NCBI RefSeq assembly: GCF_900110125.1
Contig: NZ_FOCN01000005.1
Span: forward strand, 62,001-126,000
Length of the DNA: 64,000 bases
DNA from: Cryobacterium luteum
GTDB lineage: Bacteria; Actinomycetota; Actinomycetes; Actinomycetales; Microbacteriaceae
Reading direction: 5' to 3'
The translations under genes were made by a program, and so were the position numbers. The notes under the pieces are model-generated. The model ran no database searches. It was not told the origin of the DNA and saw nothing but the letters and a program-made list of their open reading frames with translations. Shown one piece after another: positions 308-63,022 of this stretch; positions within the stretch are counted from its first letter, which is position 1, and every line of letters begins with the position of its first letter.

Positions 308-380
308 CGCCCCCCAAATTTGTCGTCGGGCGGATGCCGGTGGTCGTCAGCCTCCCTGCACACTGATTACTCTTGAACCC

Positions 381-2459
381 ATGAGTTCCACCGACCCCCT
401 GCGCAACCTCGGTGTGCGCTTGACCAGCGCCGGTGGCGAACTCCGTGTCTGGGCCGAGCACGCCGACGCCATGGAGTTGTGCTTGTTCGACGACACCGAC
501 CCGAACTGGATCATCAAGAGCGTGCCGATGACCATGGACGTGCACGGCGTTTGGTCCGGCAAATCGCGCACCCTGTCACCGGGGCGCCGCTACGGCATCC
601 GGGTGTCGGGTCCGGCGAGCCCTAAGAACTCGTTCCACCCGGAGAAAACCCTGATCGAACCGTATTCTCGTGGTTTGGTTCGGGTGGGAGCCGGGCTGTG
701 GCAATCCTCGGTCGTCGACGACTATTTCGACTGGAACGGTACCGCAAAACCGGCAACGGCCCTCGACCACACTGTGGTTTATGAGGCGCACGTGCGCGGC
801 CTCAGCCGGCTGAATCCGCTGGTTCCGGCCGCGCTGCGTGGAACCTACGCCGGGCTCGCCCACGAATCGACCATCGCCTATCTGAAAGACCTCGGCGTGA
901 CCGCGGTCGAGCTGCTGCCGGTGCAGGCGTTCGTGTCGGAGCAGCGACTGATTAAACAGGGTCTGATCAACTACTGGGGGTACAACACCCTCAATTTCTT
1001 TTCCCCGCACGCCGACTACGCCACCCAGGCAGCCCAGTCTGCCGGGCCGGCAAGCGTGCTGCGTGAGTTCAAGGGCATGGTCAAACTGTTGCACGAGGCG
1101 GGGCTCGAGGTCATCCTCGATGTCGTCTACAACCACACCGCTGAAGAGGGTCGCAACGGTCCGGTCACCAGCCTGCGCGGCATCGACAACTCTGCCTACT
1201 ATCGGCAGGACGAGTCCGGCGCGTACATCGATGTGACCGGCTGTGGCAATACGGTCAACTTCAGCCACGACGTGCCGAAACGTCTCGTGCTCGATTCGCT
1301 GCGCTACTGGGCCAACGACCTGCAGATCGACGGGTTCCGCTTCGATCTCGCCGCGACGCTCGGGCGGGACGCCGGCGTCGTCTACGACCCGGGGCATCCG
1401 CTGCTCACCGAGATTCGCGACGACCCGGAACTGGCCGGAGTGAAACTCATCGCTGAACCGTGGGACGTCGGCCAGGGCGGCTGGCAGACCGGCAATTTTC
1501 CGCCAGGCTGGACCGAGTGGAACGACCGCTACCGCGACCGCATGCGGGATTTCTGGCTGTCCGATATGAAGAGCCTGCGCCTGACCGGCTCGGCCGGCAG
1601 CGGCATCGGCCGGTTCGCGACCCGCGTCGCTGGGTCGTCGAACACCTTCTCCGAAGCTCGCGGACCGCTCGCCTCGCTCAACTTCATCACCGCCCACGAC
1701 GGGTTCACCCTGGCCGACCTGACCGCCTACGACGTGAAGCACAACCTCGGCAACGGCGAGTCGAACCGGGACGGCACCGACAACAACAACTCCTACAACC
1801 ACGGGGTCGAGGGTCCGACCCGCGACGTGGCTATTCTGGCGACGCGGCGCAAAGCCATGCGCAACATGCTCGGCACGCTGCTGCTCTCGGCCGGTATTCC
1901 CATGCTCACCGCCGGCGACGAGTTCGGGCGCAGCCAGCGCGGCAACAACAACGCCTACTGCCAGGACAGCGAGCTGACCTGGCTCAACTGGGACTTCGAC
2001 GACTGGCAGCAGGACTTGCACCGGGTCACGCGCCGGCTGCTGCAGTTGCGGCGGGAGAACCCGGCTCTGCGCCCCGTGCACTTCGGTCGGTTCGGCGAGA
2101 CCACGCCGAGCGCGAGCCAGCTGGACTGGTACAACATGGCCGGCGAGGTGCTCACCGGTGATGCCTGGAACTCGCCGACCGAGCGCACCCTGCAGTACAT
2201 GGCGGCGTCCACCCCCGAACACGAAGCCTTCAACCGCATTCTGCTGGTGATCAACGCGAGGGAGCAGGACGAGACGGTCACCCTGCCCGCGCACGAGGGA
2301 GTGGATGCCTACACGCTGCTCTGGGATTCCGGTCACGACGATCTGCGCGATTCGGTCATCGAGCACGCGCCGGGTACCCCCCTGTTCGTGTCCGGCGCTT
2401 CGATGCAGCTGATGCGGGCGCACGGCGCCTTCGTGCCGCGCCGCACACCGCTGGCCTAG
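381..2459 (+). CDS. glgX: Glycogen debranching enzyme GlgX
   Basis: Isoamylase-type debranching enzyme (GH13) that cuts alpha-1,6 branches of glycogen after phosphorylase has trimmed the outer chains; cytoplasmic. 692 residues, normal for GlgX. An N-terminal CBM48-like domain precedes the catalytic barrel. Region I is VVYNHTAEEG near residue 247; the catalytic triad can be placed as D322 (GFRFDLA), E359 (IAEPWD) and D440 (TAHDGF). The segment NRDGTDNNNSYNHGVEGPT and the later GDEFGRSQRGNNNAYCQD are typical of GlgX. The start chosen is ATG 381 (MSSTDPLRNLG); the frame is open upstream to 294 but that part has no homologous character. TACTCT lies seven bases before the ATG, so the transcript may be almost leaderless. 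It converges with glgP. Confidence 0.95.
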   Translation: MSSTDPLRNLGVRLTSAGGELRVWAEHADAMELCLFDDTDPNWIIKSVPMTMDVHGVWSGKSRTLSPGRRYGIRVSGPASPKNSFHPEKTLIEPYSRGLVRVGAGLWQSSVVDDYFDWNGTAKPATALDHTVVYEAHVRGLSRLNPLVPAALRGTYAGLAHESTIAYLKDLGVTAVELLPVQAFVSEQRLIKQGLINYWGYNTLNFFSPHADYATQAAQSAGPASVLREFKGMVKLLHEAGLEVILDVVYNHTAEEGRNGPVTSLRGIDNSAYYRQDESGAYIDVTGCGNTVNFSHDVPKRLVLDSLRYWANDLQIDGFRFDLAATLGRDAGVVYDPGHPLLTEIRDDPELAGVKLIAEPWDVGQGGWQTGNFPPGWTEWNDRYRDRMRDFWLSDMKSLRLTGSAGSGIGRFATRVAGSSNTFSEARGPLASLNFITAHDGFTLADLTAYDVKHNLGNGESNRDGTDNNNSYNHGVEGPTRDVAILATRRKAMRNMLGTLLLSAGIPMLTAGDEFGRSQRGNNNAYCQDSELTWLNWDFDDWQQDLHRVTRRLLQLRRENPALRPVHFGRFGETTPSASQLDWYNMAGEVLTGDAWNSPTERTLQYMAASTPEHEAFNRILLVINAREQDETVTLPAHEGVDAYTLLWDSGHDDLRDSVIEHAPGTPLFVSGASMQLMRAHGAFVPRRTPLA

Positions 2460-2485
2460 CCCGCCGGGCTGGGCCAGCGGGCTAG
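2456..2485. terminator. Inverted repeat covering both stop codons of glgX and glgP
   Basis: A 9-bp perfect inverted repeat, CTAGCCCGC at 2456-2464 and GCGGGCTAG at 2477-2485, with a 12-base loop. The TAG of glgX (2457-2459) and the TAG of glgP (2484-2482) are both inside the arms. It probably serves as a bidirectional terminator for this tight convergent pair (22 bp apart), though no T tract follows on either strand. Confidence 0.45.
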
Positions 2486-5049: not shown

Positions 5050-5064
5050 GAGGTCAACCTTAGA

Positions 5065-5133: not shown

Positions 5134-7254
5134 ATGGCCACGCTTTCACGCTACGGTCGTGGTGTGGCCAAGACAGCAACGAAAAAGACGACCCTGCCGA
5201 CAGCATCGAGCAGCGCCCCCACGGCCGTGTCCACGGCTGCGAGCAGCGCCGGCGCATCCGTTGGTCGAATCCCGATTCTCGACCTCTCTCCTCAGCTGAA
5301 CGACAATCTCTGGCCGGCCCGCGCCTTCGTCGGTGAAGTCGTGCCGTTCGCAGCGACCGCGTTTCGCGAGGGGCACGACCTCATCGGTGTCGAGCTGCAG
5401 CTCACCGCCCCCGGCACCAGCACCACGCGGCATCCCATGGCACTGCAAGCCGACGGCACCGATCGCTACGGTACCGAGGCTCAGCTTGGCGCTGCGGGCC
5501 GCTGGACCTATCGGGTGCGCGCCTACGCCGACGACTTCGCCACCTGGGAACACAACGCCGCGATCAAGATTCCGGCGGGCATCGACGTTGAACTCATGTT
5601 CGAGATCGGTGGTGCACTGCTCCGCCAGGCCAGTGCCGACACCGCCCGACCGCTCGCCGCACGCCGACTGTTCAAGGCCGCTGCGGCCACCCTCGCCGAC
5701 ACCACAAAGCCCGCCACCGAACGTCTGCTCGCCGTAGCGGATGCCGCGCTCCGGCAGGCCATCGCAGCCCACCCCCTCGCCGGGCTGGCCACTCTTTCAG
5801 CCGAACGCACCATCATCGTCGAACGCACCAGGGCCGGGGTCGGCTCCTGGTACGAATTCTTCCCCCGCTCGGAGGGTGCCGTGCGACGGCCCGACGGCAG
5901 CTGGCAGAGCGGAACTTTCCGCACCGCGGCCAAGCGACTGCCCGCCGTCGCGGCCATGGGCTTCGATGTGCTCTACCTGCCGCCGATCCACCCGATCGGG
6001 CAGTCCTGGCGCAAGGGCCCCAACAATTCGCTCGAGGTCGCACCGGGCGACCCCGGCTCGCCGTGGGCGATCGGCTCGAAAGACGGTGGCCATGACGCCA
6101 TCCACCCCGACCTCGGCACCGTCGCCGACTTCACGTTCTTTCTGAAGACGGCAGCCTCGCACGGCATCGAGGTAGCCCTCGACTTCGCGCTGCAGGCCTC
6201 GCCGGACCACCCCTGGGTGCAGGAGCATCCGGAATGGTTCACGACCCTCCCCGACGGCACCATCGCCTACGCCGAGAACCCGCCGAAGAAATACCAGGAC
6301 ATCTACCCGATCAATTTCGACAACGATCCCGCCGGCATCCGGGCCGAGGCGTTGCGCCTCGTTCGGTACTGGATCAGCGTTGGGGTGCGCATCTTTCGGG
6401 TGGACAACCCCCACACCAAACCTCTCGATTTTTGGGAATGGCTCATCGGTGAGGTCAACGCCTCCGACCCCGACGTGGTCTTCCTCGCCGAAGCGTTCAC
6501 CCGGCCGGCCCTCATGCAGGCGCTCGGCAAGGTCGGCTTCCAGCAGTCCTACACGTACTTCACCTGGCGCAACACGAAAATCGAACTCGAAGAGTTCTTC
6601 GACGGCCTCGCCACCGATACCCCTGATTTTCTGCGCCCGAACCTGTTCGTGAACACCCCCGACATCCTCACCGAATACCTGCAGTTCGGCGGGCCGGCGG
6701 CGTTCAAGATCCGGGCAGCCCTCGCCGCGACGGCCGCGCCGACCTGGGGGGTGTACGCCGGCTTCGACCTGTTCGAGAACGTCGCCCGGCCGGGTGCCGA
6801 AGAGAGCATCGACAACGAGAAATACGAGTACCGACCGCGCGACTGGAGCAAGGCGGAGGAGCTCGGAAAATCCCTTGCGCCGTACCTCACGCTTCTGAAT
6901 CGCATTCGGGCGGACCACCCGGCGCTCGGGCAGCTTCGCAACCTCGATATCCACGCCAGTGACGACGACTCGATCCTCGTCTACAGCAAGTACCTCGACG
7001 CCGCCTACACGGGCACCGGCCAGGCGGATGCCCTCATCATCGTCGCCAACGTCGACCCGCACTCGGTGCGCCAGACGGTCGTGCACCTCGACGTGACCCG
7101 GTTCGGCATTGCCCGCGGTGACACTTTCGACGTGCACGACCTCGTGTCGGGCGCCACCTGGACCTGGTCAGCCGACAACTTCGTTCGCCTCGACGCCTTC
7201 AGCGAACCGGTGCACATCCTGCACGTCACCCCCCACGATCCGGGCCACGCATGA
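5134..7254 (+). CDS. glgE: Alpha-1,4-glucan:maltose-1-phosphate maltosyltransferase GlgE
   Basis: GH13_3 maltosyltransferase that elongates alpha-1,4 glucan from maltose 1-phosphate, the last polymerising step of the trehalose-to-glucan route. 706 residues from ATG 5134, preceded by GGGAG; the first 35 residues are an Ala/Thr/Ser-rich tail and the family domain begins at GRIPILDLSPQLNDN. Catalytic residues by alignment to the family: D424 (IFRVDNPHTKP), E453 (FLAEAFTRP) and D510 (NTPDIL). The N-terminal domain and the segment GSWYEFFPRSEG are typical. The gene overlaps glgB by four bases (ATGA), so the two are translationally coupled. An in-frame GTG at 5164 is a less likely start. The trehalose synthase and maltokinase that make its substrate are not in the window. 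Confidence 0.95.
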   Translation: MATLSRYGRGVAKTATKKTTLPTASSSAPTAVSTAASSAGASVGRIPILDLSPQLNDNLWPARAFVGEVVPFAATAFREGHDLIGVELQLTAPGTSTTRHPMALQADGTDRYGTEAQLGAAGRWTYRVRAYADDFATWEHNAAIKIPAGIDVELMFEIGGALLRQASADTARPLAARRLFKAAAATLADTTKPATERLLAVADAALRQAIAAHPLAGLATLSAERTIIVERTRAGVGSWYEFFPRSEGAVRRPDGSWQSGTFRTAAKRLPAVAAMGFDVLYLPPIHPIGQSWRKGPNNSLEVAPGDPGSPWAIGSKDGGHDAIHPDLGTVADFTFFLKTAASHGIEVALDFALQASPDHPWVQEHPEWFTTLPDGTIAYAENPPKKYQDIYPINFDNDPAGIRAEALRLVRYWISVGVRIFRVDNPHTKPLDFWEWLIGEVNASDPDVVFLAEAFTRPALMQALGKVGFQQSYTYFTWRNTKIELEEFFDGLATDTPDFLRPNLFVNTPDILTEYLQFGGPAAFKIRAALAATAAPTWGVYAGFDLFENVARPGAEESIDNEKYEYRPRDWSKAEELGKSLAPYLTLLNRIRADHPALGQLRNLDIHASDDDSILVYSKYLDAAYTGTGQADALIIVANVDPHSVRQTVVHLDVTRFGIARGDTFDVHDLVSGATWTWSADNFVRLDAFSEPVHILHVTPHDPGHA

Positions 7255-9575
7255 GCGGCGACAAGAAAAAAGACAAGAAGAAGCACTCGAGCAAGCACCA
7301 GAAAGGTCAGGGAAAGAACATCGACGGCAAGAAGGGTCAGTCCCCGAAGACACACTCCACAAAGGCCACGAAGCACGCGGCCCCCACCGAACCGGCACCG
7401 ATTCCCGACCACATTCTCGAGGCCGTCGCCGCCGGCAGCTACTACAACCCGCACGAGATTCTCGGCCAGCACCTCGCCCACCAGGCCGGCGTCTCTGACC
7501 CACTCGTCACCATCCGCGCCCTTCGTCCGCTCGCCACCGAGGTGTTCGCCATTCTGGCCAGCGGCGCGCACGTGGAACTCGCCCACCTCGCGCACGGCAT
7601 CTGGCAGGGTGAAAGCACCCTCGGACTCACCGACTACACGATCGAGGCCCGCTACCAGGATGCCCCGCCCTGGATTTGCGATGACCCCTACCGGTTCATT
7701 CCGACGCTCGGCGAGCTGGACCTGCACCTGATCGGGGAAGGCCGCCACGAGCGTCTCTGGGACGTTTTGGGGGCCCACCACCGAGAGCACGGAGGCGTCA
7801 CGGCCGCCTCCACCGGTACCTCCTTCGCGGTCTGGGCGCCGCACGCCAGAGCCGCCCGCGTCATCGGCGATTTCAACGGCTGGAACGGCACCAACCACGC
7901 CATGCGCAACATGGGCAGCACCGGTGTCTGGGAGCTGTTCATTCCGGGCCTCGAACTCGGCACCAGGTACAAATTCCAGCTGCGCACGCAGTCCGGCGCC
8001 TGGGTCGAGAAAGCCGACCCGATCGCCCGGCTGGCCGAGGTTCCGCCGCTGACGGCGTCGGTCGTCACCGCATCGCACTACGAGTGGGCGGATGCCGCGT
8101 GGCTGGCCAACCGCGAAGCCAACGATCCGCACAATCAGGCAATGAGCGTATACGAGATGCACGTCGGCTCCTGGCGCCCCGGCCTCGGCTACCGCGACCT
8201 CGCCGATGAGCTCGTCGGCTATCTGCAGGAACTAAGCTTCACGCACGTGGAATTCATGCCCCTCGCGGAGCATCCGTTCGGTGGTTCCTGGGGCTACCAG
8301 GTGAGCGGCTACTACGCGCCGACCAGCCGATTCGGCTCCCCCGACGACCTGCGCTACCTGATCGATCGGCTGCACCAGGCCGGCATCGGCGTGATCATGG
8401 ACTGGGTGCCCGGCCACTTTCCCAAGGACGACTTCGCCCTGGCCCGCTTCGACGGCCAGGCCCTCTACGAGCACCCCGACCCGCGGCGGGGTGAGCAGAT
8501 GGACTGGGGCACGTACATCTTCGACTTCGGCCAGATGCAGGTGCGCAACTTCCTCGTCGCCAACGCGCTGTACTGGCTCGAAGAGTTCCACATCGACGCC
8601 CTGCGCGTCGATGCCGTCGCATCGATGCTCTACCTCGACTACTCGCGCGAAGACGGCCAGTGGGAGCCGAACAAGTACGGCGGCAACGAGAACCTCGAGG
8701 CGATCAGCCTGCTCCAGGAGATCACCGCGACGGCGTACAAGCGCAATCCCGGCACGATCATGATTGCCGAGGAATCCACCAACTGGGGCGGGGTGACAGC
8801 GCCGACCAGCGGCGGCGGACTCGGGTTCGGGTTCAAGTGGAACATGGGCTGGATGCACGACTCCCTCGAGTACATGCAGGTCGACCCCATGTACCGGTCG
8901 TACCACCACAATGACATCACGTTCTCGTTCATCTACGCCTTCAGCGAGAACTTTCTGCTGCCGATCAGCCACGACGAGGTCGTGCACGGCAAGGGCGCCC
9001 TCGTCTCGAAGATGCCGGGCGACTCCTGGCAGCAGCTCGCCAATGTGCGCGCCTACCTCGCCTTCATGTGGGCGCACCCCGGCAAGCAGCTTCTGTTCAT
9101 GGGCAGTGAGTTCGGGCAGCGCTCGGAGTGGAGCGAGGAACGCGGCCTGGATTGGTGGATGCTCGACCAGCCCGCCCACCGCGGCCTGTTCAACCTCGTC
9201 GGCCAGCTCAACCGCGTGTACCGCGACAACGCGAGCCTGTGGAGCCGCGACAACGACCCGGGCGGCTTCGAACTGCTCGATGGCGGAGCAGCGAGCCAGA
9301 ACGTCGTGTCATTTCTGCGCTGGGACAACCACGGCGTACCGGTGGCCTGCTTCTTCAACTTCGCCGGGCAGCCGCACACCGACTATCGGGTGGGTCTGCC
9401 GTTCGCCGGGCAGTGGGAGGAGATCCTCAACACGGATGCCAGCGATTTCGGTGGCTCCGGCGTGGGAAACCAGGGAGCCGCCCAGGCCTACAACGAGCCC
9501 TGGGCGGGCCGGCCGGCATCCGCTACCCTGACCCTGCCACCTCTGGCTGGTCTCTGGTTGCGCCTGCGCCGCTAA
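7251..9575 (+). CDS. glgB: 1,4-alpha-glucan branching enzyme GlgB
   Basis: GH13_9 branching enzyme that introduces alpha-1,6 branches into the linear glucan made by GlgE. 774 residues, with a Lys-rich, disordered-looking N-terminal tail (about residues 1-45, KKKDKKK and repeated GK/KG) before the usual N domain (YNPHEILGQHL) and CBM48 (SFAVWAPHARAARVIGDFNGW). Catalytic triad: D454 (ALRVDAVASML), E507 (IAEEST) and D575 (PISHDEVVHGKG). Region I is DWVPGHFPKDD, close to the usual DWVPAHFP. The start ATG overlaps the glgE stop codon. The basic tail is unusual and could bind RNA, DNA or an acidic partner; this is speculation. Confidence 0.96.
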   Translation: MSGDKKKDKKKHSSKHQKGQGKNIDGKKGQSPKTHSTKATKHAAPTEPAPIPDHILEAVAAGSYYNPHEILGQHLAHQAGVSDPLVTIRALRPLATEVFAILASGAHVELAHLAHGIWQGESTLGLTDYTIEARYQDAPPWICDDPYRFIPTLGELDLHLIGEGRHERLWDVLGAHHREHGGVTAASTGTSFAVWAPHARAARVIGDFNGWNGTNHAMRNMGSTGVWELFIPGLELGTRYKFQLRTQSGAWVEKADPIARLAEVPPLTASVVTASHYEWADAAWLANREANDPHNQAMSVYEMHVGSWRPGLGYRDLADELVGYLQELSFTHVEFMPLAEHPFGGSWGYQVSGYYAPTSRFGSPDDLRYLIDRLHQAGIGVIMDWVPGHFPKDDFALARFDGQALYEHPDPRRGEQMDWGTYIFDFGQMQVRNFLVANALYWLEEFHIDALRVDAVASMLYLDYSREDGQWEPNKYGGNENLEAISLLQEITATAYKRNPGTIMIAEESTNWGGVTAPTSGGGLGFGFKWNMGWMHDSLEYMQVDPMYRSYHHNDITFSFIYAFSENFLLPISHDEVVHGKGALVSKMPGDSWQQLANVRAYLAFMWAHPGKQLLFMGSEFGQRSEWSEERGLDWWMLDQPAHRGLFNLVGQLNRVYRDNASLWSRDNDPGGFELLDGGAASQNVVSFLRWDNHGVPVACFFNFAGQPHTDYRVGLPFAGQWEEILNTDASDFGGSGVGNQGAAQAYNEPWAGRPASATLTLPPLAGLWLRLRR

Positions 9576-9653: not shown

Positions 9654-10658
9654 TCAGTAGAGCAGGGCGGCCAGGCGGGACCGGGTGGGGGCGACCCGGG
9701 GGTCGTCGGTGCCGATGACCTCGAACAGTTCCAGGATGCGCTCGCGGATCGTGTTGCGACCCGGCGCCGGCTGGGCCGGGAACAGGGTCAGCAGCCGATC
9801 GAAAGCGTCCTCGATGTGACCGCCAGAGAGGTCAAGGTCGGCGACCAGCAGTTGCGCGTCGAGATCGTCGGGAGCGGATGCCGCCCCATTGCGGATCTGG
9901 TCGATGGTCTTGCCCTGCAGCCGGGCAAGCAGGCTGACCTGGGCCAGTCCGGCCACGGCCATGGAGTCGTTCGGGTTTTGGGCCAGGGCCGTGCGGTATT
10001 CGCTCTGGGCGGTGGCGTAGTCGCCGGCCTCGATGGCCGCGTAGGCCTCCAGGTGGTGCGGCGGCAGCGGCTCGTCGACCACGGCGGCCGGCTCGGCGTC
10101 GGCGGCCACTCCGGCGGCCTCGGCTGTACCGGTCACGCCCTGCTGGGCGGCGAGCTCGAGCACCCGACCGAGCACATCGGCGATCTGTTCCTCAGCGAGC
10201 GGGCCGGTGAAGAGCTGCACCGGCTGACCGGTGATGACGGCGGCGACCGTTGGTACGGACTGGGCCTGGAAGGCCTGCGCGAGCTGAGGGTTCGCGTCAA
10301 TGTCAACGCGCGCCAACACGAACTGGCCGGCGAGGCCGGTGATGAGCTGCTCCAGCACCGCCATGAGCGTGGTGGAGGGCTCGCTCCACGATGCCCAGAG
10401 TCCGACGATGACGGGAACACGGGAGGAGAGTTCGAGCAGGTCGCCGAAGTTTGCGTCGGTGCCGTCCAGAACAAGGCTCGGAACTGTGACGGGCGCGGTG
10501 GGCGCTGCCGGCTCGCCGACGGGGGCGCCCGAGACGGGTGCGCCGACGGGCGCTCCGTTCCTGGCGGTCGGCGGGGTACCGGCCGGGGCGCGGTTCACGA
10601 GGGAGGAGAGGTCGACCGCTCCGCGCAGGTTCGATCCGGAAGGGGGCATGTTGGTCAT
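9654..10658 (-). CDS. Thioredoxin-fold/TPR co-chaperone-like protein (YbbN/CnoX type)
   Basis: 334 residues: a Pro/Ala/Gly-rich N-terminal tail (about 1-60), a thioredoxin fold (about 62-175) and C-terminal tetratricopeptide-like helices (about 195-334: EAYAAIEAGDYATAQSEYRTALAQNPND and following). In the family the protein acts as a cytoplasmic chaperone or holdase feeding client proteins to folding machines. The active-site position reads W88-A-S-W-S92-E-P-S95: both cysteines of the usual CxxC are serine, so disulfide exchange is impossible. The ATG at 10658 is preceded by GGAG at a good distance and overlaps the stop of the gene upstream by four bases, so it is translated with the 614-residue membrane protein. 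Confidence 0.85.
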   Translation of the reverse strand: MTNMPPSGSNLRGAVDLSSLVNRAPAGTPPTARNGAPVGAPVSGAPVGEPAAPTAPVTVPSLVLDGTDANFGDLLELSSRVPVIVGLWASWSEPSTTLMAVLEQLITGLAGQFVLARVDIDANPQLAQAFQAQSVPTVAAVITGQPVQLFTGPLAEEQIADVLGRVLELAAQQGVTGTAEAAGVAADAEPAAVVDEPLPPHHLEAYAAIEAGDYATAQSEYRTALAQNPNDSMAVAGLAQVSLLARLQGKTIDQIRNGAASAPDDLDAQLLVADLDLSGGHIEDAFDRLLTLFPAQPAPGRNTIRERILELFEVIGTDDPRVAPTRSRLAALLY

Positions 10659-50464: not shown

Positions 50465-50501
50465 ACGGGCTGGCTGCTGCGAGGCATCCGCTTTCGTTTG
50501 G

Positions 50502-51466: not shown

Positions 51467-53056
51467 CTACCGGCCGAGCATTTTCTGCAGCGCCGCCATT
51501 TCCTCTTCGGTGGGACCGCCGGCCTTGCCCTTGCCGGGCTGGGCGCCGGAGCCGAGGCCGAAACCCGAGCCGGCGGCATCCGCTGACGCGGTTTCGCCAG
51601 CGGGCTTGACGCCCGCGGCCAGAGCGGCGTTCTCGGCGGCGCGCTTGGCCGGGTTGCCCGACTTGGAGCCCTTCTTCTTCTGCTGAACCTTGGGCTTGCC
51701 GCCGTAACCGGCGCCGGGGATCGGACCCATGCCGGGAATGTTGGGCATTCCGCCCTTGGCGACGGTCTTCATCATCTTGGCGGCCTGCTCGAAGCGCTGC
51801 ACGAGCTGGTTGACCTCGGTGACGCTCGACCCTGAGCCCTTGGCGATGCGCAGGCGGCGAGATCCGTTGAGCAGCTTCGGAGTGGTGCGTTCCAGCTTGG
51901 TCATCGACTGGATGATGGCCTCCGTGCGCACGATCTCGCGCTCGTCGAAGTTCTCGAGCTGCGCCTTCATGGCGCCGGCGCCGGGCAGCATGCTCATCAT
52001 TTTCTTGATGGAGCCCATGTTGCGCAGCTGCTGCATCTGGCCGAGAAAGTCGTCGAGGGTGAACGTATCGGTCGCGAACTTTTCGGCGACCTTGCGGGCT
52101 TCGTCCTCGTCGAATGCGCCCTGCGCCTGCTCGATCAGGGTGAGGATGTCACCGAGGTCGAGGATGCGGCCGGCCATGCGGTCGGGGTGGAACGGTTCGA
52201 AGTCGTCGAGGCCTTCACCGGTGGAGGCGAACATGATCGGGCGGCCGGTGAGCGAGGCCACCGAGAGGGCCGCGCCACCGCGGGCATCGCCGTCGAGCTT
52301 GGTGAGCACGACGCCGGTGAAGTCGACGCCGTCCTGAAAGGCCTTGGCCGTGGCGACGGCGTCCTGGCCGATCATGGCGTCGATGACGAAGAGCACCTCG
52401 TCCGGATCGATCGCCTTGCGAATGTTCGCGGCCTGCTTCATGAGTTCCGCGTCGACGCCGAGGCGGCCGGCGGTGTCGACGATGACGACGTCGTGCACTT
52501 TCTGCAGGGCGTACTTCACGCCGTCGCGGGCCACCTTGACCGGGTCGCCGACGCCGTTGCCGGGCTCGGGCGCGTAGACGGCGACGCCGGCCTGCCTGGC
52601 GACGACCTCAAGCTGGGTGACCGCGTTCGGTCGCTGCAGGTCGGCTGCGACGAGCAGCGGGGTGTGACCGTCCTTGGCGAGCCACTTGGCGAGCTTACCG
52701 GCGAGGGTGGTCTTACCGGCACCCTGCAGGCCCGCGAGCATGATGATGGTCGGCGGCTTTTTGGCGAATTCCAGCCGACGCTGTTGGCCACCGAGGATGG
52801 TGATGAGCTCGTCGTTGACGATCTGCACGACCTGCTGGGCCGGGTTCAGGGCCTTACTGACCTCGTCGCCGAGGGCGCGCTCGCGCACCTTGCCGGTGAA
52901 GTCCTTGACGACCTCGAGGGCCACGTCGGCGTCGAGCAGCGCGCGGCGGATCTCACGAACGGTGCCGTCGACATCCGCTGCGCTGAGCTTGCCCTTGGTG
53001 CGGAGGTTTTTGAACGTCTCGGCAAGACGATCTGAGAGGTTTCCAAAAGTAGCCAT
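51467..53056 (-). CDS. ffh: Signal recognition particle protein Ffh
   Basis: SRP54 GTPase that brings ribosomes making membrane proteins to FtsY. 529 residues. NG domain: LAETFKNLRTKGKLSAADVD, G1 GLQGAGKTTLAGKLA, then VDTAGRLGVDAELM and TKLDGDARGGAALS. The M domain (from about 330) has LDDFLGQMQQLRNMG and a Gly/Met-rich RNA-binding end, with a Lys-rich tail. Start ATG 53056. Its 3' end is followed by twin-palindrome copy B. Confidence 0.96.
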   Translation of the reverse strand: MATFGNLSDRLAETFKNLRTKGKLSAADVDGTVREIRRALLDADVALEVVKDFTGKVRERALGDEVSKALNPAQQVVQIVNDELITILGGQQRRLEFAKKPPTIIMLAGLQGAGKTTLAGKLAKWLAKDGHTPLLVAADLQRPNAVTQLEVVARQAGVAVYAPEPGNGVGDPVKVARDGVKYALQKVHDVVIVDTAGRLGVDAELMKQAANIRKAIDPDEVLFVIDAMIGQDAVATAKAFQDGVDFTGVVLTKLDGDARGGAALSVASLTGRPIMFASTGEGLDDFEPFHPDRMAGRILDLGDILTLIEQAQGAFDEDEARKVAEKFATDTFTLDDFLGQMQQLRNMGSIKKMMSMLPGAGAMKAQLENFDEREIVRTEAIIQSMTKLERTTPKLLNGSRRLRIAKGSGSSVTEVNQLVQRFEQAAKMMKTVAKGGMPNIPGMGPIPGAGYGGKPKVQQKKKGSKSGNPAKRAAENAALAAGVKPAGETASADAAGSGFGLGSGAQPGKGKAGGPTEEEMAALQKMLGR

Positions 53057-53085: not shown

Positions 53086-53712
53086 CTAGTTCGAAACGGA
53101 TGCCGCGGCGCGCGTTGCATCCACTGCGAGCGCTGCCGGCGCGACCAGGCGCTCGACCGCGCGGATGACGTTGGCTCGCCTCACCGGGATCGCCGCCGGG
53201 TCGGGCGTACCGCCGTAGGCGAGCACCGCTCCGGGCTCATGCATCCACGCGGTGGCGACGCCGAAGATAAGGGTCATGAGCTGCGCTGGATCCCACGCGG
53301 CGTCGACTCGACCGGCCGCCTGCGCCAAACGGATGCGCCGCACCTGTTCGTCCCGATAGCCGAGCATGACCTCGAGGGCCGGCAGCCAGGTGCCGTCGGT
53401 CTCCAGGCGCGCCCAGTCGATCATGCGCAGGTGGTCGCCGTGCTGCACCGCGTGGTCGAACAGGGCTCCGGCGAAGGCCGGCATGTCGTGGTCAGTGAGC
53501 ACGGCGTCGCTCGCGAACTCGCGCAGGTTCAGCTCCAGCACCTCGAGGAAGAGCTGCTCCTTGTCGGAGTAGTACGCGTAGAGGCGTTCCTTGCTCGCGG
53601 ACGCACTTTTAGCGATGCGGTCGATGCGAGCCCCGGCGAGACCGTAGGCCGCGAACTCCGTGCGCGCCGCGTTGAGAATACGAGTCTGGGGGTCTGCTCC
53701 GTCGCGTGCCAT
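53086..53712 (-). CDS. TetR-family regulator
   Basis: 208 residues. Helix-turn-helix AYGLAGARIDRIAKSASASKERLYAYYSDKEQLF at about 22-56; the rest is a helical ligand domain. It diverges from the MFS exporter gene, and a perfect 16-bp palindrome between them covers the -35 region of its own promoter (TATAGT at 53724-53719, six bases before the ATG). It is the likely repressor of the exporter and of itself. Confidence 0.92.
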   Translation of the reverse strand: MARDGADPQTRILNAARTEFAAYGLAGARIDRIAKSASASKERLYAYYSDKEQLFLEVLELNLREFASDAVLTDHDMPAFAGALFDHAVQHGDHLRMIDWARLETDGTWLPALEVMLGYRDEQVRRIRLAQAAGRVDAAWDPAQLMTLIFGVATAWMHEPGAVLAYGGTPDPAAIPVRRANVIRAVERLVAPAALAVDATRAAASVSN

Positions 53713-55961: not shown

Positions 55962-56837
55962 TCAGCCGACCAGTTTCTGTGCAAACACGTGCGGGGTGAA
56001 TCCGGTGAGATCGTTGATGCCCTCACCCTGCCCGACCAGTTTGATGGGAATACCGGTCTTCTCCTGCACGGCCAGCACGAAGCCGCCGCGCGCCGAACCG
56101 TCGAGCTTGGTCAGTACCAGGCCGGTCACCCCGGCGTGCTCGATGAAGGCCTCGGCCTGGGCGAGCCCGTTCTGGCCGGTCGTGGCGTCGAGCACGAGCA
56201 GCACCTCGGCGATCGGACCCTGCTTCTCGACCACCCGGCGAATCTTGGTGAGCTCGTCCATCAAGCCGCCCTTGGTCTGCAGCCGCCCGGCGGTATCGAT
56301 GAGCACGATCTCAATGCCCTCGTTCCTGGCCTTCTCGACCGTTTGAAAGGCGACGGATGCCGGATCCTGGCCGGTCATCTGCGGTTTCACGATTTGCGCG
56401 CCGGCGCGTTCCGCCCAGGTCGACAGTTGTTCGACCGCACCGGCCCGGAACGTGTCGGCCGCGCCGATCACGACGCTGCGGCCGTACGTGTGCAGAAACT
56501 TGGCGAATTTTCCAATCGTCGTGGTCTTGCCGACCCCGTTGACCCCGACGACGAGCACGACTGCAGGGCGCTCAGACAGTGTGAGAGTGGAGTCAAGGGC
56601 CGAGAGGCGCTCTTCGATGCTTTCGCGCAGCATCCGTTGTAAATCGGTCGGGTCGGTCGTGTTGTACCGGGCGACCTTGGCGCGCAGGTCGGCGATGACC
56701 GCGTCGGTGACGGTGGGGCCGAAGTCGGCCTGCAGCAGGGCGTCCTCCAGGTCGTCCCAGGTGTCGGCGTCGATGGTCTTCTTCGCGAACATTCCGCGCA
56801 GTGCGCCGGAGAGGGACCAGGGGGTGCGTTCAGCCAT
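55962..56837 (-). CDS. ftsY: SRP receptor FtsY
   Basis: GTPase docking partner of Ffh at the membrane. 291 residues: the N and G domains only, without the long acidic A domain of E. coli; the first ten residues (AERTPWSLSGALRGMF) may bind lipid. GTPase motifs: VNGVGKTTTIGKFA, VIGAADTFRAGAVEQL, DTAGRLQTKGGLMDEL and TKLDGSARGGFV. TAGGCT stands six bases before the ATG, so the mRNA is probably leaderless. In M. tuberculosis ffh and ftsY (Rv2916c, Rv2921c) are similarly close. Confidence 0.95.
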   Translation of the reverse strand: MAERTPWSLSGALRGMFAKKTIDADTWDDLEDALLQADFGPTVTDAVIADLRAKVARYNTTDPTDLQRMLRESIEERLSALDSTLTLSERPAVVLVVGVNGVGKTTTIGKFAKFLHTYGRSVVIGAADTFRAGAVEQLSTWAERAGAQIVKPQMTGQDPASVAFQTVEKARNEGIEIVLIDTAGRLQTKGGLMDELTKIRRVVEKQGPIAEVLLVLDATTGQNGLAQAEAFIEHAGVTGLVLTKLDGSARGGFVLAVQEKTGIPIKLVGQGEGINDLTGFTPHVFAQKLVG

Positions 56838-56849: not shown

Positions 56850-56983
56850 CGGGGGTGCCGACGGCTTCGCCGCGGTGAGGCGCGCGAGCGCGGGATGCTG
56901 CGGCGCAGCGCCAGAGAAGCGGATGCTCCCAGCCACGCCCGTCTGTCGCTGACCGCACAGCATTCACAACCCCCGCAAACTAT

Positions 56984-57112: not shown

Positions 57113-58873
57113 GTGCCGAACGAAACCGAAACGGTGCAGACCGATGCGACGGAGCTCGCCACCACGCCGGCAGCGTCCAAGCTGCCCGCCGCCCGCCCGC
57201 CGCGGCCGTCGACCCGCCCGAACGGCCAGTGGAAGATCGACGGCACCGAACCGCTCAACGGTAATGAGGAGTGGAAGCGGGTCGACAACGGCCTCGCCGT
57301 GCGCGGCCGCATTGAACAGATCTACTCCAAGCAGGGTTTCGACTCGATCGACGGCACCGACCTGCACGGTCGCTTTCGCTGGTGGGGCCTCTATACGCAG
57401 CGCAAGCCCGGCATCGACGGCGGCAAGACCGCCACGCTCGAACCCGAAGAGCTCGAAGACCGCTACTTCATGCTGCGCGTGCGCATCGACGGCGGCCAGC
57501 TCAGCACCGAACAGACCAGGGTGATCGGCGCGGTGTCCCGCGACTTCGGCCGCGACACCGCCGACATCACCGACCGTCAGAACATCCAGCTTCACTGGAT
57601 TCAGATCGAGGACATGCCCGAAATCTGGCGCCGCCTCGAGGCCGTCGGGCTTGAAACCACCCAGGCCTGCGGCGATGTGCCGCGCGTGTTCCTCGGCTCC
57701 CCCGTGGCCGGCATCGCCGCCGACGAACTCATCGACCCCACCGAGTCCATCAACGAACTCGCCCGCAAATTTCTCGGCACCGACGAATTCGCCAACCTGC
57801 CCCGCAAGTTCAAAACCGCCATCACCGGCCACCCCAGCCAGGACGTCGTGCACGAGATCAACGACATCGGCCTCGTCGCGCTCGACCACCCCGAGCTGGG
57901 CATCGGCTACGACCTCTGGGTCGGCGGAGCGCTCAGCACTACCCCACGGCTGGCCGAACGCCTCGGCGCGTTCGTCGCCGAAGACCGAGTGTCTGAAGTC
58001 TGGCGCGGCGTCGCCTCCATCTTTCGAGATTACGGCTACCGCCGACTGCGCGGCAAGGCACGCCTGAAGTTTCTGCTCGCCGAGTGGGGACCGGAGAAGT
58101 TCCGTCGTATTCTCGAAGACGAATATCTCGGCTACACCCTGCCCGACGGCCCCGCCGCTCCCCGCCCGAAGACGCAGGGCGACCACGTGGGCGTGCACAA
58201 GCAGAAGGACGGCCGTTTCTACATCGGCGTCGCCCCCTTTGTCGGCCGCGTCTCGGGACAGACCCTGATCAGGCTCGCCGACCTGCTCGAAGCCCACGGC
58301 TCGACCCGCCTGCGCACGACCCCACACCAGAAGATCGTGGTGCTTGACGTGGCCGAAGAGCACGTGGAACCGCTCATCACGGCCCTCGACGAGATCGGAC
58401 TCTCGGCCCGCCCGAGCCTGTTCCGCCGGTCGACCGTGGCCTGCACCGGTATCGAATTCTGCAAGCTCGCCATCGTTGAGACCAAGCAGTCCGCAACGGA
58501 TGCCATCCTCGAGCTCGAGAAGCGCCTCGCCGATATCGCCGCCCCGCACCCCATCACCCTGCACGTGAACGGATGCCCCAACTCCTGCGCCCGCATCCAG
58601 ACCGCGGACATCGGGCTCAAGGGCCAGCTTTTGCCGGACGGCAACGGCGGCTCCACCCCCGGCTTCCAGGTGCACCTCGGCGGCGGCCTCGCCTCCGTCG
58701 ACCGGGACGAGGCCGGCCTCGGCCGTACCGTGCGCGGCCTCAAGGTGACCGCCGACGACCTCGCCGACTACGTCGAACGCCTCGTACGCCGCTTCCTGGC
58801 CGCCCGCAGCGCCGACACCGACGAAACCTTTGCCCAGTGGGCGCACCGCGCCGACGAGGAGGACCTCAAATGA
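57113..58873 (+). CDS. Assimilatory sulfite reductase (ferredoxin type, siroheme)
   Basis: Reduces sulfite to sulfide with electrons from ferredoxin. 586 residues from a GTG at 57113 with GGGAG upstream. Two ferredoxin-like and two siroheme-binding halves; the siroheme-[4Fe-4S] ligands are C444 and C450 (ACTGIEFCKLA) and C488 and C492 (NGCPNSCAR). The first half has TDRQNIQLHWIQIEDMPEIW and TTQACGDVPRVFLGSPVAGI. A nitrite reductase of the same fold (NirA) is the alternative, but cysH, cysD and cysN follow in one operon. It overlaps cysH by four bases. Siroheme must come from the genes at 41-48 kb. Confidence 0.92.
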   Translation: MPNETETVQTDATELATTPAASKLPAARPPRPSTRPNGQWKIDGTEPLNGNEEWKRVDNGLAVRGRIEQIYSKQGFDSIDGTDLHGRFRWWGLYTQRKPGIDGGKTATLEPEELEDRYFMLRVRIDGGQLSTEQTRVIGAVSRDFGRDTADITDRQNIQLHWIQIEDMPEIWRRLEAVGLETTQACGDVPRVFLGSPVAGIAADELIDPTESINELARKFLGTDEFANLPRKFKTAITGHPSQDVVHEINDIGLVALDHPELGIGYDLWVGGALSTTPRLAERLGAFVAEDRVSEVWRGVASIFRDYGYRRLRGKARLKFLLAEWGPEKFRRILEDEYLGYTLPDGPAAPRPKTQGDHVGVHKQKDGRFYIGVAPFVGRVSGQTLIRLADLLEAHGSTRLRTTPHQKIVVLDVAEEHVEPLITALDEIGLSARPSLFRRSTVACTGIEFCKLAIVETKQSATDAILELEKRLADIAAPHPITLHVNGCPNSCARIQTADIGLKGQLLPDGNGGSTPGFQVHLGGGLASVDRDEAGLGRTVRGLKVTADDLADYVERLVRRFLAARSADTDETFAQWAHRADEEDLK

Positions 58874-59640
58874 GCGCCATCAACCTGAACGCGGCATCCG
58901 CTGCCCGCGCCCTGCCGCCGCGTCGACCGGCCGCCGAACTGCAGGCCCTCGCCGAAGCCGGTTCGGCCGAACTCGCCTCGGCCGCCGCAGCGAACGGCCG
59001 TGAGGCCACCGCCGCCGAGGTCGTCGCCTGGGTCGCCCGCAATTTCAGCGCCGACACAGTGGCGGTCGCCTGCTCCATGGCCGACGCGGTGCTGCCCGAG
59101 ATCGTGTCACAACAGCTGCCCGGCGTCGACGTGCTCTTCCTCGACACCGGCTACCACTTCACCGAGACCTATGAGACCCGCGACGCGGTCGCCGCCGCCC
59201 TGCCGGTCACCGTCGTTGATGTGCTGCCACTCGCCACCGTGTCGGAGCAAGACGCCCTACACGGCGCCGAACTGTTCGCCCGCGACCCGAACGCTTGCTG
59301 CGCGATGCGTAAGGTCGAACCGTTGCAGCGGTCGCTGGGCGGCTACGAACTGTGGTTCACCGGGGTACGCCGTGACGAAGCGCCCACCCGCGCCAACACA
59401 CCGCTGGTCACCTGGGACGACCGCAACGGCCTGGTCAAGGTGAACCCGGTCGCCGCCTGGAGCTACGACGAACTGATGGACTACGCCGTCAAGCATCACG
59501 TTCCGGTGAACGTGCTGCTCTCCCAGGGCTACCCCTCCATCGGCTGTGCCCCGTGCACGCAGCCCGTCGCGGCGGGCGCTGACCCCCGTTCCGGCCGCTG
59601 GGCCACCCTCGAGAAGACAGAATGCGGGCTCCACCTATGA
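58870..59640 (+). CDS. cysH: Adenylylsulfate (APS) reductase
   Basis: Reduces activated sulfate to sulfite. 256 residues from ATG 58870, overlapping the gene before it. The iron-sulfur type is shown by C143-C144 (NACCAMRK) and C226/C229 (IGCAPCTQP), which bind a [4Fe-4S] cluster and mark APS rather than PAPS reductases. The catalytic cysteine is C252 in TECGLHL at the very end. VDVLFLDTGYHF is the nucleotide site. No APS kinase is seen in the operon, which agrees with APS as substrate. Confidence 0.94.
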   Translation: MSAINLNAASAARALPPRRPAAELQALAEAGSAELASAAAANGREATAAEVVAWVARNFSADTVAVACSMADAVLPEIVSQQLPGVDVLFLDTGYHFTETYETRDAVAAALPVTVVDVLPLATVSEQDALHGAELFARDPNACCAMRKVEPLQRSLGGYELWFTGVRRDEAPTRANTPLVTWDDRNGLVKVNPVAAWSYDELMDYAVKHHVPVNVLLSQGYPSIGCAPCTQPVAAGADPRSGRWATLEKTECGLHL

Positions 59641-60545: not shown

Positions 60546-61606
60546 TGAGAAATTCGCTACGTTTGGGCGCTCTCATGCTGGGAACGGTCCTTCTTCTGAG
60601 CGGATGCGCTGCCACGGCCAGCACCGAGCCCGCCACCGACCAGGGTGCAGCCGACGAACTGCGTCTGGGCTACTTCGACAACGTCACCCACGCGGCCGCA
60701 CTGGTCGGGCTGGAGAACGGCTTCATCGAGGAGGCCCTCGGCGACACGACGCTGAGCACCCAGATCTTCAATGCCGGCCCGGCCGCCATTGAAGCCCTCA
60801 GCGCCGGCGCCATCGACGCCGCCTATATCGGCCCGAGCCCTGCCGTGAACACGTTCATCCAGAGCGGCGGCCAGTCGGCCGTCATCGTGGCGGGAGCGGC
60901 GAGCGGCGGCGCGGCGCTCGTCGTGCGCGACGGTATCGACAGCCCGGCCGACCTGGCCGGCACCATCCTCGCCACGCCGCAGCTCGGCAACACCCAGGAT
61001 GTCGCCCTGCGCGCCTGGCTCGGCGATGAAGGCTACACGACCAGCACCACCGGCGGCGGCGACGTGAATGTGTCCCCGACCGAGAACGCGCAGACCCTGA
61101 CCTTGTTCCAGAGCGGCCAGATCGACGGCGCCTGGCTGCCGGAGCCGTGGGTGTCCCGGCTGGTGCTCGAAGCCGGCGCACACGTTCTCGTGAACGAAGC
61201 CTCCCGGTGGAAGAACGGCGATTTTCCCACCACCGTGCTGCTCGTGCGCAAGGCCTTTCTCGAGGAGCACCCCGACACCGTTCAGGCGCTGCTGGAGGGC
61301 CATGTCACGGCCGTCGACTGGCTCACCGCGAACCCGGCCGACGCCGCCACGGTCATCAACGCGAAGCTCACGGCCGATACCGGCAAGGCTCTCGCCGACG
61401 ATGTGCTGGCCCGCGCCCTGACCGAAGTGACGTTCAACGTCGACCCGCTGGCGTCGACCTTTCCGGTCTCGCTCGCCGAGGCGGTCAAGGCCGGCATCGG
61501 TAAGGACGGCGACTTGAACGGCCTGTTCAACGTGGCACTGCTCAACGCGGTACTGGCCAAGCACGCAGAAGAACCGGTCTCGGCCGGCGGATTGGGAACG
61601 GAATAG
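60545..61606 (+). CDS. ABC transporter substrate-binding lipoprotein (SsuA/TauA/NrtA type)
   Basis: 353 residues with a lipoprotein signal peptide ending LLLSGCAAT. NMT1/SsuA-like fold: LRLGYFDNVTHAAALVGLENGFIEEAL, FNAGPAAIEALSAGAIDAAYIGPSPAVN, FQSGQIDGAWLPEPWVSRL. Members bind sulfonates, taurine, nitrate or similar. The setting inside a sulfate operon, with the ATPase and permease downstream, suggests import of sulfate or sulfonates. Start ATG overlaps the cysD stop by one base (TAATG). Its place between cysD and cysN is unusual. Confidence 0.9.
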   Translation: MRNSLRLGALMLGTVLLLSGCAATASTEPATDQGAADELRLGYFDNVTHAAALVGLENGFIEEALGDTTLSTQIFNAGPAAIEALSAGAIDAAYIGPSPAVNTFIQSGGQSAVIVAGAASGGAALVVRDGIDSPADLAGTILATPQLGNTQDVALRAWLGDEGYTTSTTGGGDVNVSPTENAQTLTLFQSGQIDGAWLPEPWVSRLVLEAGAHVLVNEASRWKNGDFPTTVLLVRKAFLEEHPDTVQALLEGHVTAVDWLTANPADAATVINAKLTADTGKALADDVLARALTEVTFNVDPLASTFPVSLAEAVKAGIGKDGDLNGLFNVALLNAVLAKHAEEPVSAGGLGTE

Positions 61607-61609
61607 CAG

Positions 61610-63022
61610 ATGACCCTCACCATTGACACCCAGGCCAGCACCGAGAACGACATCGTCGCCGCCCCCGAAGGCACCCTGTTTCGTTTCGCGACGGCCGGCT
61701 CGGTCGACGACGGCAAGTCCACCCTCGTGGGTCGGCTGCTGCACGATTCCAAGGCCATCCTCGCCGACCAGCTCGAAGCGGTCACCCGTACCTCCACCGA
61801 GCGCGGCTTCGGCGGCGAGAGCGGCGGAATCGACTTCGCCCTGCTGACCGACGGCCTGCGCGCCGAACGCGAACAGGGCATCACCATCGACGTGGCCTAC
61901 CGCTATTTCGCGACGCCCGCCCGCTCGTTCATTCTCGCCGACTGCCCCGGCCACGTGCAGTACACCCGCAACATGGTCACCGGCGCCACCACAGCGGATG
62001 CCGTCATCATGCTCATCGACGCCCGCAAGGGTGTGCTCGAGCAGACCCGCCGGCACCTCAGCGTCGTCGCCCTGCTGCGGGTGCCGCACGTGATCGTCGC
62101 GGTCAACAAGATCGACCTGTTGGACTACGACGAGGCCGCCTACCGGGAGGTGGAGGCATCCGTTCGCCTGGTCACCGCCGAACTCGGCATCGCTGAGGTG
62201 CTCGTCATTCCGGTGTCGGCCCTGGTCGGCGACAACGTCGTCGACCGTTCCGAGCGCACCCCGTGGTATGCCGGACCGAGCCTGCTCGAACTGCTCGAAA
62301 CCCTCACCGTGATCGACGACCTCGACGAGCGCGGGCAGGCCACCGAGGCGTTCCGCCTGCCGGTGCAGCTCGTGCTGCGACCGCAGGGCGCGGTCGTCGT
62401 GGCCCCGGAACTGGCCGATTCCTACCGCGATTACCGGGCCTACGCCGGGCAGGTCGCCAGCGGCAGCATCAGGGTGGGCGACCCGGTGAGCGTCGAGCCC
62501 GGCGGCGGCACCAGCACCGTCACCGGTATCGACTTCGCGGGCGTCGCGCTCGAGGAGGCCTTCGCACCGCAGTCAGTTGCGCTGCGCCTGGCCGATGACC
62601 TCGACATTGCCCGCGGCGCCGTGATCGCCGCCGCCGGCACCCTGCCGCCGATCACGCGCACCCTGACGGCCGACCTGTTCTGGCTCGACCCGCGCCCGCT
62701 CGCCCCGGGCGCCCGCGTGCTCCTGAAATTCGGCACGACCGTCGTGCAGGCCCTGATCAGCGCCGTCACCGGGCGCCTCGACCTCAGCACGCTCGCCGTT
62801 GAACCGGCCACAGCCCTGGCCGTGAACGATATCGGGCAGGCCAGCATCCGCTTGTCCCGCGATTTGCCCGTGGAGCGCTACACGCAGAACCGCCGCTCCG
62901 GCGCTTTCCTGGTGATCCACCCGCAGGACGGCGCGACCCTCGCCGCCGGCATCGTCACCGCGCCCGGCGAGCCCACCCGCGCCGGCGACGGCTCGGGCGC
63001 CGGCTCGGAGGTGTCACCGTGA
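61610..63022 (+). CDS. cysN: Sulfate adenylyltransferase subunit 1
   Basis: GTPase subunit that drives ATP sulfurylase. 470 residues, EF-Tu-like. G1 TAGSVDDGKSTLVGRLLHD, G2 region AEREQGITIDVAYRYF, G3 DCPGHVQYTRNMVTG, G4 VNKIDLLDY. Two beta-barrel domains follow. There is no APS kinase domain fused at the end, consistent with direct use of APS by CysH. It starts three bases after the binding-protein stop and overlaps the ATPase gene. Confidence 0.95.
   Translation: MTLTIDTQASTENDIVAAPEGTLFRFATAGSVDDGKSTLVGRLLHDSKAILADQLEAVTRTSTERGFGGESGGIDFALLTDGLRAEREQGITIDVAYRYFATPARSFILADCPGHVQYTRNMVTGATTADAVIMLIDARKGVLEQTRRHLSVVALLRVPHVIVAVNKIDLLDYDEAAYREVEASVRLVTAELGIAEVLVIPVSALVGDNVVDRSERTPWYAGPSLLELLETLTVIDDLDERGQATEAFRLPVQLVLRPQGAVVVAPELADSYRDYRAYAGQVASGSIRVGDPVSVEPGGGTSTVTGIDFAGVALEEAFAPQSVALRLADDLDIARGAVIAAAGTLPPITRTLTADLFWLDPRPLAPGARVLLKFGTTVVQALISAVTGRLDLSTLAVEPATALAVNDIGQASIRLSRDLPVERYTQNRRSGAFLVIHPQDGATLAAGIVTAPGEPTRAGDGSGAGSEVSP

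Follow-up and report, generated by a model that had tools for sequence, protein, structure and literature searches.

What makes a single short word recur so often in the DNA of Cryobacterium luteum? In the window analysed here (64,000 nucleotides of contig NZ_FOCN01000005.1, positions 62,001 to 126,000, assembly GCF_900110125.1), a preliminary description made by eye had listed 23 copies of the nonamer GCGGATGCC (or GGCATCCGC, on the other strand), claimed a strong excess over chance, and proposed a target for a DNA methyltransferase, a chromosome-organising protein or a repair/recombination system. All 23 start positions hold exact copies, and one more, at 1393 on the minus strand, had been missed, which brings the count to 24 (12 per strand). 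The claimed excess holds, as 100 dinucleotide shuffles of the window gave a mean of 2.07 copies (largest 6), and its order-3 Markov expectation is 1.65. On balance, we hold it somewhat probable, from the sequence patterns set out below, that the word serves the Microbacteriaceae as a 'self' tag resembling a DNA uptake sequence.

A ten-base word in excess across the genome

In a 444 kb genome sample (the window plus 19 further stretches), an order-3 model predicted 11.3 nonamers, while 130 were observed, and genome-wide (3.83 Mb, 73 contigs) we counted 587 + 536 = 1,123, as opposed to 113 of a control word obtained by reading it backwards; thus, the count is neither explained by an order-3 model nor does it sink to background elsewhere in the genome. 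As the repeated unit, the nonamer proved too short. An alignment of 66 CGGATGC copies revealed an A at position -2 in 49 and a purine at -1 in 59 of them, together with a weaker C-G-C on the 3' side of the core, and no flanking tracts. The full unit, A(A/G)CGGATGCC (i.e. ARCGGATGCC), has 1,374 copies in the genome versus 41 of its reversed control, which corresponds to about one per 2.8 kb and an approximately 50-fold excess over the order-3 model; 45 sites of the form ARCGGATGC lie within the window.

When words with at least 10 copies were ranked in the 444 kb sample, AGCGGATGCC and AACGGATGCC took the first two places among 10-mers, with 101 copies against 1.9 and 48 against 1.1 in the order-3 expectation; the leading 8-mer and 9-mer likewise fall within ARCGGATGCC. 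Non-palindromic and with more than a thousand copies in the genome, it is the most over-represented of the words ranked in the sample. The over-representation of AGCGGATGCC fell gradedly with mismatch load (52.6, 4.25, 1.15 and 0.96 at 0, 1, 2 and 3 mismatches); of three control words from this genome, one had a value of 7.6 without mismatches, on 9 copies. Rfam yielded no match in the window at gathering scores. A second word, AATTCAGGAA (or TTCCTGAATT), unrelated to the main motif, occurred 11 times in the same sample (0.3 expected).

That the word is a mutational or codon artefact is barely credible: GGATG and GATGCC are each common in the window, but Markov orders 1-4 predict only 1.9-4.3 copies of AGCGGATGCC versus the 101 observed (order 5 predicts 17.2, being trained on the word itself), and identity between relatives exceeds that of the flanks (see below). 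Moreover, the excess of ARCGGATGC extends to all six reading frames, rare codons included (sense frames: 8, 13 and 56 observed vs 0.21, 0.75 and 0.69 expected; antisense frames: 64, 21 and 24 vs 0.25, 2.39 and 0.42), as judged from 299 genes called in the 444 kb sample with a simple codon-trained finder (74% called coding, surely an underestimate). Codon choice, as the preliminary description had argued, and composition are therefore rejected as causes, and its conclusion that the DNA itself is under selection or subject to a bias is supported by the Markov counts, the frames and the conservation. The sites display no intergenic preference, since 50 of 239 were found outside called genes (3 more lie across a gene border), while 62 would be expected there if they were uniformly spread.

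Strong replichore polarity of the word is excluded, and weak polarity is possible. In samples from six contigs of the genome, 121 ARCGGATGC sites are on the plus and 118 on the minus strand, and every contig is mixed (51/41, 19/24, 22/17, 5/8, 12/15 and 12/13); in a single-contig relative (3.8 Mb), the 100 listed of 163 plus-strand sites span 0-2.72 Mb, with 66 within the first 1.9 Mb. We consider it fairly unlikely that the word is a Chi-like signal, which would attenuate a RecBCD/AdnAB-type nuclease at broken ends and start repair. Chi is typically frequent, non-palindromic, over-represented and core-rich, the Bacillus subtilis Chi (AGCGG) is contained in AGCGGATGCC, and the integrase island described below is motif-free; however, about 75% of Escherichia coli Chi sites are co-oriented, as opposed to the balanced strands, mixed contigs and (at most weakly polar) single-contig relative seen here, and both a length of ten letters and spelling changes within one family would be unusual for Chi.

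The spacing of the sites is irregular (coefficient of variation 1.23 over 233 gaps, with slight clumping and no periodicity). Hence, while genome-wide scatter, conservation and the lack of strong polarity would suit a site bound by a protein of chromosome organisation or segregation, we deem this improbable: besides the irregular spacing, some 1,400 copies far exceed the numbers of parS- or matS-type sites, and rapid spelling change would require the co-evolution of an essential protein. A role in terminator hairpins was rejected, as the site at 50483 folds like shuffled sequence (z 0.05) and close inverted pairs are no commoner than chance predicts (5 gaps below 50 bp, 6.5 expected). A strand-following purine at position 2, hinted at by eye in one relative, was absent from the six contig samples.

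Conservation and distribution of the word

Five relatives could be aligned to 58-60 kb of the window, with an identity of 86-90%. Conservation around the sites is below average (flanks of 81-85% identity), and yet the 9-mer is better preserved than its own flanks at orthologous places in all five: it is identical in 24/43, 29/41, 19/41, 25/40 and 24/41 places, against 16.5, 10.9, 10.8, 13.2 and 10.8 expected when same-phase windows are drawn from the flanks of each site (P = 0.01, <5e-5, 0.003, 1e-4 and <5e-5, respectively); as the relatives share ancestry, the five tests are not independent of one another. In a further control, permuted words elsewhere in the window were identical in 30-47% of places, versus 46-71% for the motif, and the mean base identity of the motif was in clear excess over the permuted words in three relatives (G543, G542 and G551) and not in the other two (G078 and G549). 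Most aligned places that lack the word differ by base changes and not by gaps, so that the insertion of a small mobile repeat is rejected as its main origin (gapped exceptions are 47844, 53095 and 56918).

All 31 Cryobacterium genomes examined are enriched in ARCGGATGCC (122 to 1,391 copies, each at least three times the control). Within the Microbacteriaceae (85 genomes, one per genus and two for Cryobacterium), 35 exceed threefold the control plus one, while none stands out among 230 genomes from 19 other families (within a set of 248 genomes of the order): the maximum there was 82 copies, in a genome of 9.4 Mb where the control matched 85 times, and ratios of 2 to 3 came from small counts only (the largest 65 vs 29). 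Among the examined genomes of the order, the word is thus confined to the Microbacteriaceae. A literature search covering titles and the starts of abstracts (subscription papers and preprints lay outside it) found no study of actinobacterial uptake sequences; among the matches listed for the letters of the nonamer none deals, by title, with an iterated word, and in PMC12089995 (Microbacteriaceae species) these letters are part of a probe.

Stretches with low site density tend towards lower G+C. The cleanest of them, 13.2 kb long (contig C21, 19.5-32.8 kb), has no site where 7.1 would be predicted (Poisson P 8e-4, the stretch having been selected post hoc); it starts with a tyrosine integrase and also encodes a phage-family protein. 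The integrase itself is matched in many relatives, and among the matches listed for 30 relatives hardly any falls at 2.9-10 kb of the stretch.

Words of other genera, competence genes and a possible role in DNA uptake

For 25 other genera (5 high and 20 low in the Cryobacterium word), we scanned 75-80 kb of one genome apiece; 16 gave an over-represented word, which contains GGA in 15 of them. The words were picked afterwards as the best of many, and both strands were counted, so that palindromes count twice. The high-count genera gave ACGGATGCCG, CGGATGCCG, ACGGATGCC and CGGATGCC, and in a further high-count genome (G280) CGGATGCCGC (z 9.3) stands alongside the unrelated ATATGCGCGG (9.6). The low-count genera gave GGATGCGG (z 12.7), GTGGATGCG (12.0), GGATGCCC (14.3), GCAGGATCC (20.3), GCGCAGGAGC and GGGCGCAGGA (10.7 and 11.5), AGGAGGCG (11.7) and ACACCGAT (10.0), as well as the weaker GCGGATCG (8.9) and GCGGATCC (8.9 and 8.1 in two genera, in the second of which the palindromic form CGGATCCG has 9.4). 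Given the choice of the best of many, the double-counted palindromes and a z of 9.5 reached with ATCGCGAT in an otherwise unremarkable genome, the GCGGATCC and GCGGATCG cases are borderline when taken alone. GACGGGAGGC (z 15.2, low-count genus) is perhaps part of a dispersed repeat: in this genome (G257, loci L193-L196) it occurs at 21 places in 80 kb with its flanking bases conserved too, as in a dispersed repeat or a long word.

Several words recurred in named loci (61 of 80, hand-chosen, at most 22 kb long and all around the same gene; 19 that were unnamed, short or bin-derived were left out): GCGGATCC in Clavibacter (30 vs 9.6), AGGAGGCG in Frigoribacterium (32 vs 9.0), GGATGCGG in Herbiconiux (46 vs 9.7) and CGGATGCC in Agromyces (136 vs 21.8). 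Genome G010 (1,430,433 bp, 51.6% G+C in the sample), which fits Rhodoluna lacicola in size, holds 502 copies of ACACCGAT and 5 of ARCGGATGCC. The R. lacicola genome is reported to measure about 1.4 Mbp (PMC8591293). Two congeners of G010 (genus g11) have 336 and 331 copies of ACACCGAT and three more have 113, 65 and 70. Apart from G010 and the first two, the 15 genomes of up to 1.8 Mb that were searched have 65 to 150, G211 (2.0 Mb) has 175 and the C. luteum genome (3.8 Mb) has 205. For this word, reading backwards gives a poor control, which is exceeded in all 20 genomes.

In one sampled genome (G029, loci L061-L064), the octamer GCGATCGC, known in cyanobacteria as highly iterated palindrome 1 (HIP1), was raised, with 44 places in 80 kb against about 15 expected. 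According to PMC4390886, HIP1 recurs throughout a single lineage and has a link to orphan methyltransferases. A comparable site tied to a solitary DNA methyltransferase, whose methylation would aid repair or chromosome upkeep, would agree with that precedent, with the raised octamer and with the near-palindromic GCGGATCC and CGGATCCG, but the Cryobacterium word has ten bases and is non-palindromic, as are most of the other words, and we find this reading distinctly unlikely.

Natural transformability has been reported for two Microbacteriaceae, R. lacicola and Aurantimicrobium photophilum (PMC11577799), for which comEC, comEA, dprA and tad/flp genes are described (PMC8591293), and in Micrococcus luteus transformation is reported to require Flp pilus genes and comEC (PMC4322843). 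The C. luteum genome encodes comEA as well as type IV pilus clusters with pilins that carry the N_methyl motif. On contig C51 (165-218 kb; L244, L245), neighbouring type IV pilus clusters of this actinobacterium contain three PilC-type genes, along with PilB-like, PilT-like, pilin, PilO and prepilin peptidase genes. Contig C72 (L246, L247) carries the end of a class I tRNA-ligase, comEA (SLBB and HhH) and an open reading frame of 282 aa with a weak, sub-threshold DUF4131 match, taken as the 5' part of comEC, and contig C52 (L243:1-3165) has the 3' part of comEC abutting an oppositely oriented large serine recombinase. Since the halves are on separate contigs, next to the recombinase and, near the C72 side of the break, an ImmA/HTH-type regulator, comEC appears to be split by an integrative element, although the contig ends leave this short of proof. 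In pneumococci, mobile elements are reported to disable competence genes, among them comEC (PMC12637031). The strain may no longer be transformable, and in that case its tags would be inherited.

We rate DNA uptake as the best of the readings considered, ahead of the methyltransferase, chromosome-organising and repair/recombination roles first proposed, because the word is non-palindromic, not strongly polar and graded, has related words in other genera, and belongs to a family with competent members. We also count in its favour the excess in all six frames, the conservation above the flanks, the restriction to one family, the motif-free integrase stretch, the comEC, comEA and pilus genes, and the separate word of the genome of R. 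lacicola size. A putative DNA-binding component of the transformation machinery, such as a pilin or a receptor of ComEA type, would prefer tagged DNA, the imported fragments would replace homologous DNA through recombination, and this bias, together with point mutation, would build up tags at weakly constrained positions and make each genus favour its own DNA. With somewhat less confidence, in fact a little short of an even chance, we entertain a broader picture: a family-wide uptake self-recognition with genus-level dialects, the first in Gram-positives, independent of the proteobacterial systems, served by a new receptor and countered by mobile elements through insertion into comEC.

Several observations weigh against the uptake reading. 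The uptake sequences in the literature we found are from Neisseriaceae and Pasteurellaceae only, and the excess of close inverted pairs seen in Neisseria is missing here. No clear word emerged in 9 of the 25 genera, three of the 16 words are borderline (genera g35, g52 and g85), the G010 word lacks GGA, and a shared GGA, in words rich in G+C, is weak evidence on its own. As comEC (PF03772) is near-universal in the family (293 of 299 genomes) and present in 10 of 14 control genomes, it does not discriminate. Proteins of the T2SSF family occur in 96 of 100 genomes (94 above the cut-off), and among the 85 genomes compared a word enrichment above 3 was found in 22 of 46 with a strong, PilC-like match (E <= 1e-28) and in 13 of 39 without one (Fisher P = 0.19, Mann-Whitney P = 0.06); one genome (G003) combines 187 word copies with no T2SSF match. 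With this association non-significant, dependence on the type IV pilus platform was rejected, and a simple ComP-type model is weakened. Low density is also not a matter of mobile DNA alone, considering that a motif-poor stretch of contig C45 (170-206 kb) encodes transporters, oxidases and other ordinary genes. One site lies within the 10.6 kb of possible element DNA beside the comEC break.

If the uptake reading is true, it would bear on the reasons why certain bacteria prefer DNA of their own kind and on how a tag evolves together with its reader. Several spellings within a family that has transformable members would make this an independent case and a new comparative system; it may also explain failed transformations with foreign DNA and provide a genetic handle for Cryobacterium and freshwater Actinomycetota.

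Sites in the window and comparison with known systems

The two sites called intergenic in the preliminary description fared differently: the one at 50483 does lie between called genes, whereas the status of that at 330 depends on the start codon (it is outside the called gene 381-2459 and inside the longest open reading frame of that frame, 294-2459). An AT-rich palindrome, CAGTTTATAAACTG, was noticed at 51398-51411 and 55386-55399 (with a one-mismatch copy at 36246-36259); it is absent, even with one mismatch, from 100 shuffles of this 66% G+C window and is perhaps the putative operator of one regulator.

Table 1. Copies of the word in the window, as located by exact nonamer search ('nonamer') or through the list of ARCGGATGC sites ('ARC list'); 'kept 5/5' refers to the five aligned relatives.
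Feature	Position	Strand	Basis and remarks
ARCGGATGC site	163..171	-	ARC list; kept 5/5
GCGGATGCC without leading A	330..338	+	nonamer; CGGATGC alignment
AGCGGATGCC site, absent from the preliminary description	1393..1402	-	nonamer; ARC list
AACGGATGC site	5254..5262	-	ARC list
AGCGGATGCC site	5736..5745	+	nonamer; ARC list
GCGGATGCC without leading A	7024..7032	+	nonamer; CGGATGC alignment
GCGGATGCC without leading A	8088..8096	+	nonamer; CGGATGC alignment
AACGGATGC site	8270..8278	-	ARC list
AGCGGATGCC site	9515..9524	-	nonamer; ARC list
AGCGGATGCC site	9873..9882	+	nonamer; ARC list
AGCGGATGCC site	12122..12131	-	nonamer; ARC list
AGCGGATGCC site	14040..14049	+	nonamer; ARC list
AGCGGATGC site	16037..16045	+	ARC list; kept 5/5
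AGCGGATGC site	21051..21059	+	ARC list; 4/5 relatives differ at 3-4 of nine bases, without gaps
AGCGGATGCC site	22714..22723	-	nonamer; ARC list
AGCGGATGCC site	22810..22819	+	nonamer; ARC list
AGCGGATGCC site	24126..24135	+	nonamer; ARC list
AGCGGATGCC site	26411..26420	-	nonamer; ARC list; region unaligned in five relatives
AGCGGATGCC site	27799..27808	-	nonamer; ARC list; region unaligned in five relatives
AACGGATGCC site	29244..29253	+	ARC list
AGCGGATGCC site	32198..32207	-	nonamer; ARC list
AGCGGATGCC site	33879..33888	-	nonamer; ARC list
AACGGATGCC site	34216..34225	+	ARC list
AACGGATGCC site	36000..36009	-	ARC list
AACGGATGCC site	38343..38352	+	ARC list; kept 5/5
AACGGATGC site	38676..38684	+	ARC list
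AGCGGATGCC site	40298..40307	+	nonamer; ARC list
AGCGGATGC site	43025..43033	-	ARC list
AGCGGATGCC site	43069..43078	+	nonamer; ARC list
AGCGGATGCC site	46555..46564	-	nonamer; ARC list
AGCGGATGCC site, inverted pair left arm	47844..47853	+	nonamer; CGGATGC alignment; ARC list
AACGGATGCC site, inverted pair right arm	47856..47865	-	CGGATGC alignment; ARC list
AACGGATGCC site	47880..47889	-	ARC list
AACGGATGC site	49627..49635	-	ARC list; kept 5/5
AGCGGATGCC site between convergent genes, no unusual hairpin	50483..50492	-	nonamer; ARC list; folding
AGCGGATGCC site within SRP54-type gene	51575..51584	-	nonamer; ARC list; kept 5/5
AACGGATGCC site	53095..53104	+	ARC list
AACGGATGC site	53328..53336	+	ARC list
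AACGGATGC site	56630..56638	-	ARC list; kept 5/5
AGCGGATGC site	56918..56926	+	ARC list
AACGGATGCC site	58495..58504	+	ARC list; kept 5/5
AACGGATGCC site	58568..58577	+	ARC list
AGCGGATGCC site	58893..58902	-	nonamer; ARC list
AGCGGATGC site	60599..60607	+	ARC list
AGCGGATGCC site	61993..62002	+	nonamer; ARC list; kept 5/5
AACGGATGCC site	62155..62164	-	ARC list
AGCGGATGC site	62844..62852	-	ARC list; kept 5/5
AGCGGATGC site	63181..63189	+	ARC list; kept 5/5

Like Chi, the word is over-represented and strand-specific, and it may likewise belong to the core genome, but Chi is shorter and usually co-oriented with replication, while strong polarity is lacking here. Unlike the uptake signal sequence (USS) of the Pasteurellaceae, it has no flanking AT tracts, and word and host are unrelated; its density is lower than that of the DNA uptake sequence (DUS) of the Neisseriaceae, from which it also differs in its actinobacterial host, its unrelated letters and its lack of an inverted-pair excess. 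With the USS it has in common that it is a short, putative self word whose one-mismatch forms are gradedly over-represented, a graded fall with mismatches being described for uptake sequences in PMC1939737.

The likeness to the DUS, as reported in PMC3630211, is closer: the DUS (roughly 900 to 3,400 copies) is likewise among the most over-represented 10-12-mers of its genome, found in both coding and intergenic DNA, and its dialects vary around a short common core (CTG, versus the GGA of 15 of the 16 words found here); the DUS is also conserved in the core genome, as may hold for the word of Cryobacterium. The comparison with cyanobacterial HIP1 drawn in the preliminary description is apt in style, both being lineage-wide iterated words; HIP1, however, is palindromic, has eight bases and a single dominant spelling, and is associated with methyltransferases (PMC4390886). 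Being non-palindromic and spelled differently from genus to genus, the word of Cryobacterium stands nearer to the DUS dialects than to HIP1.

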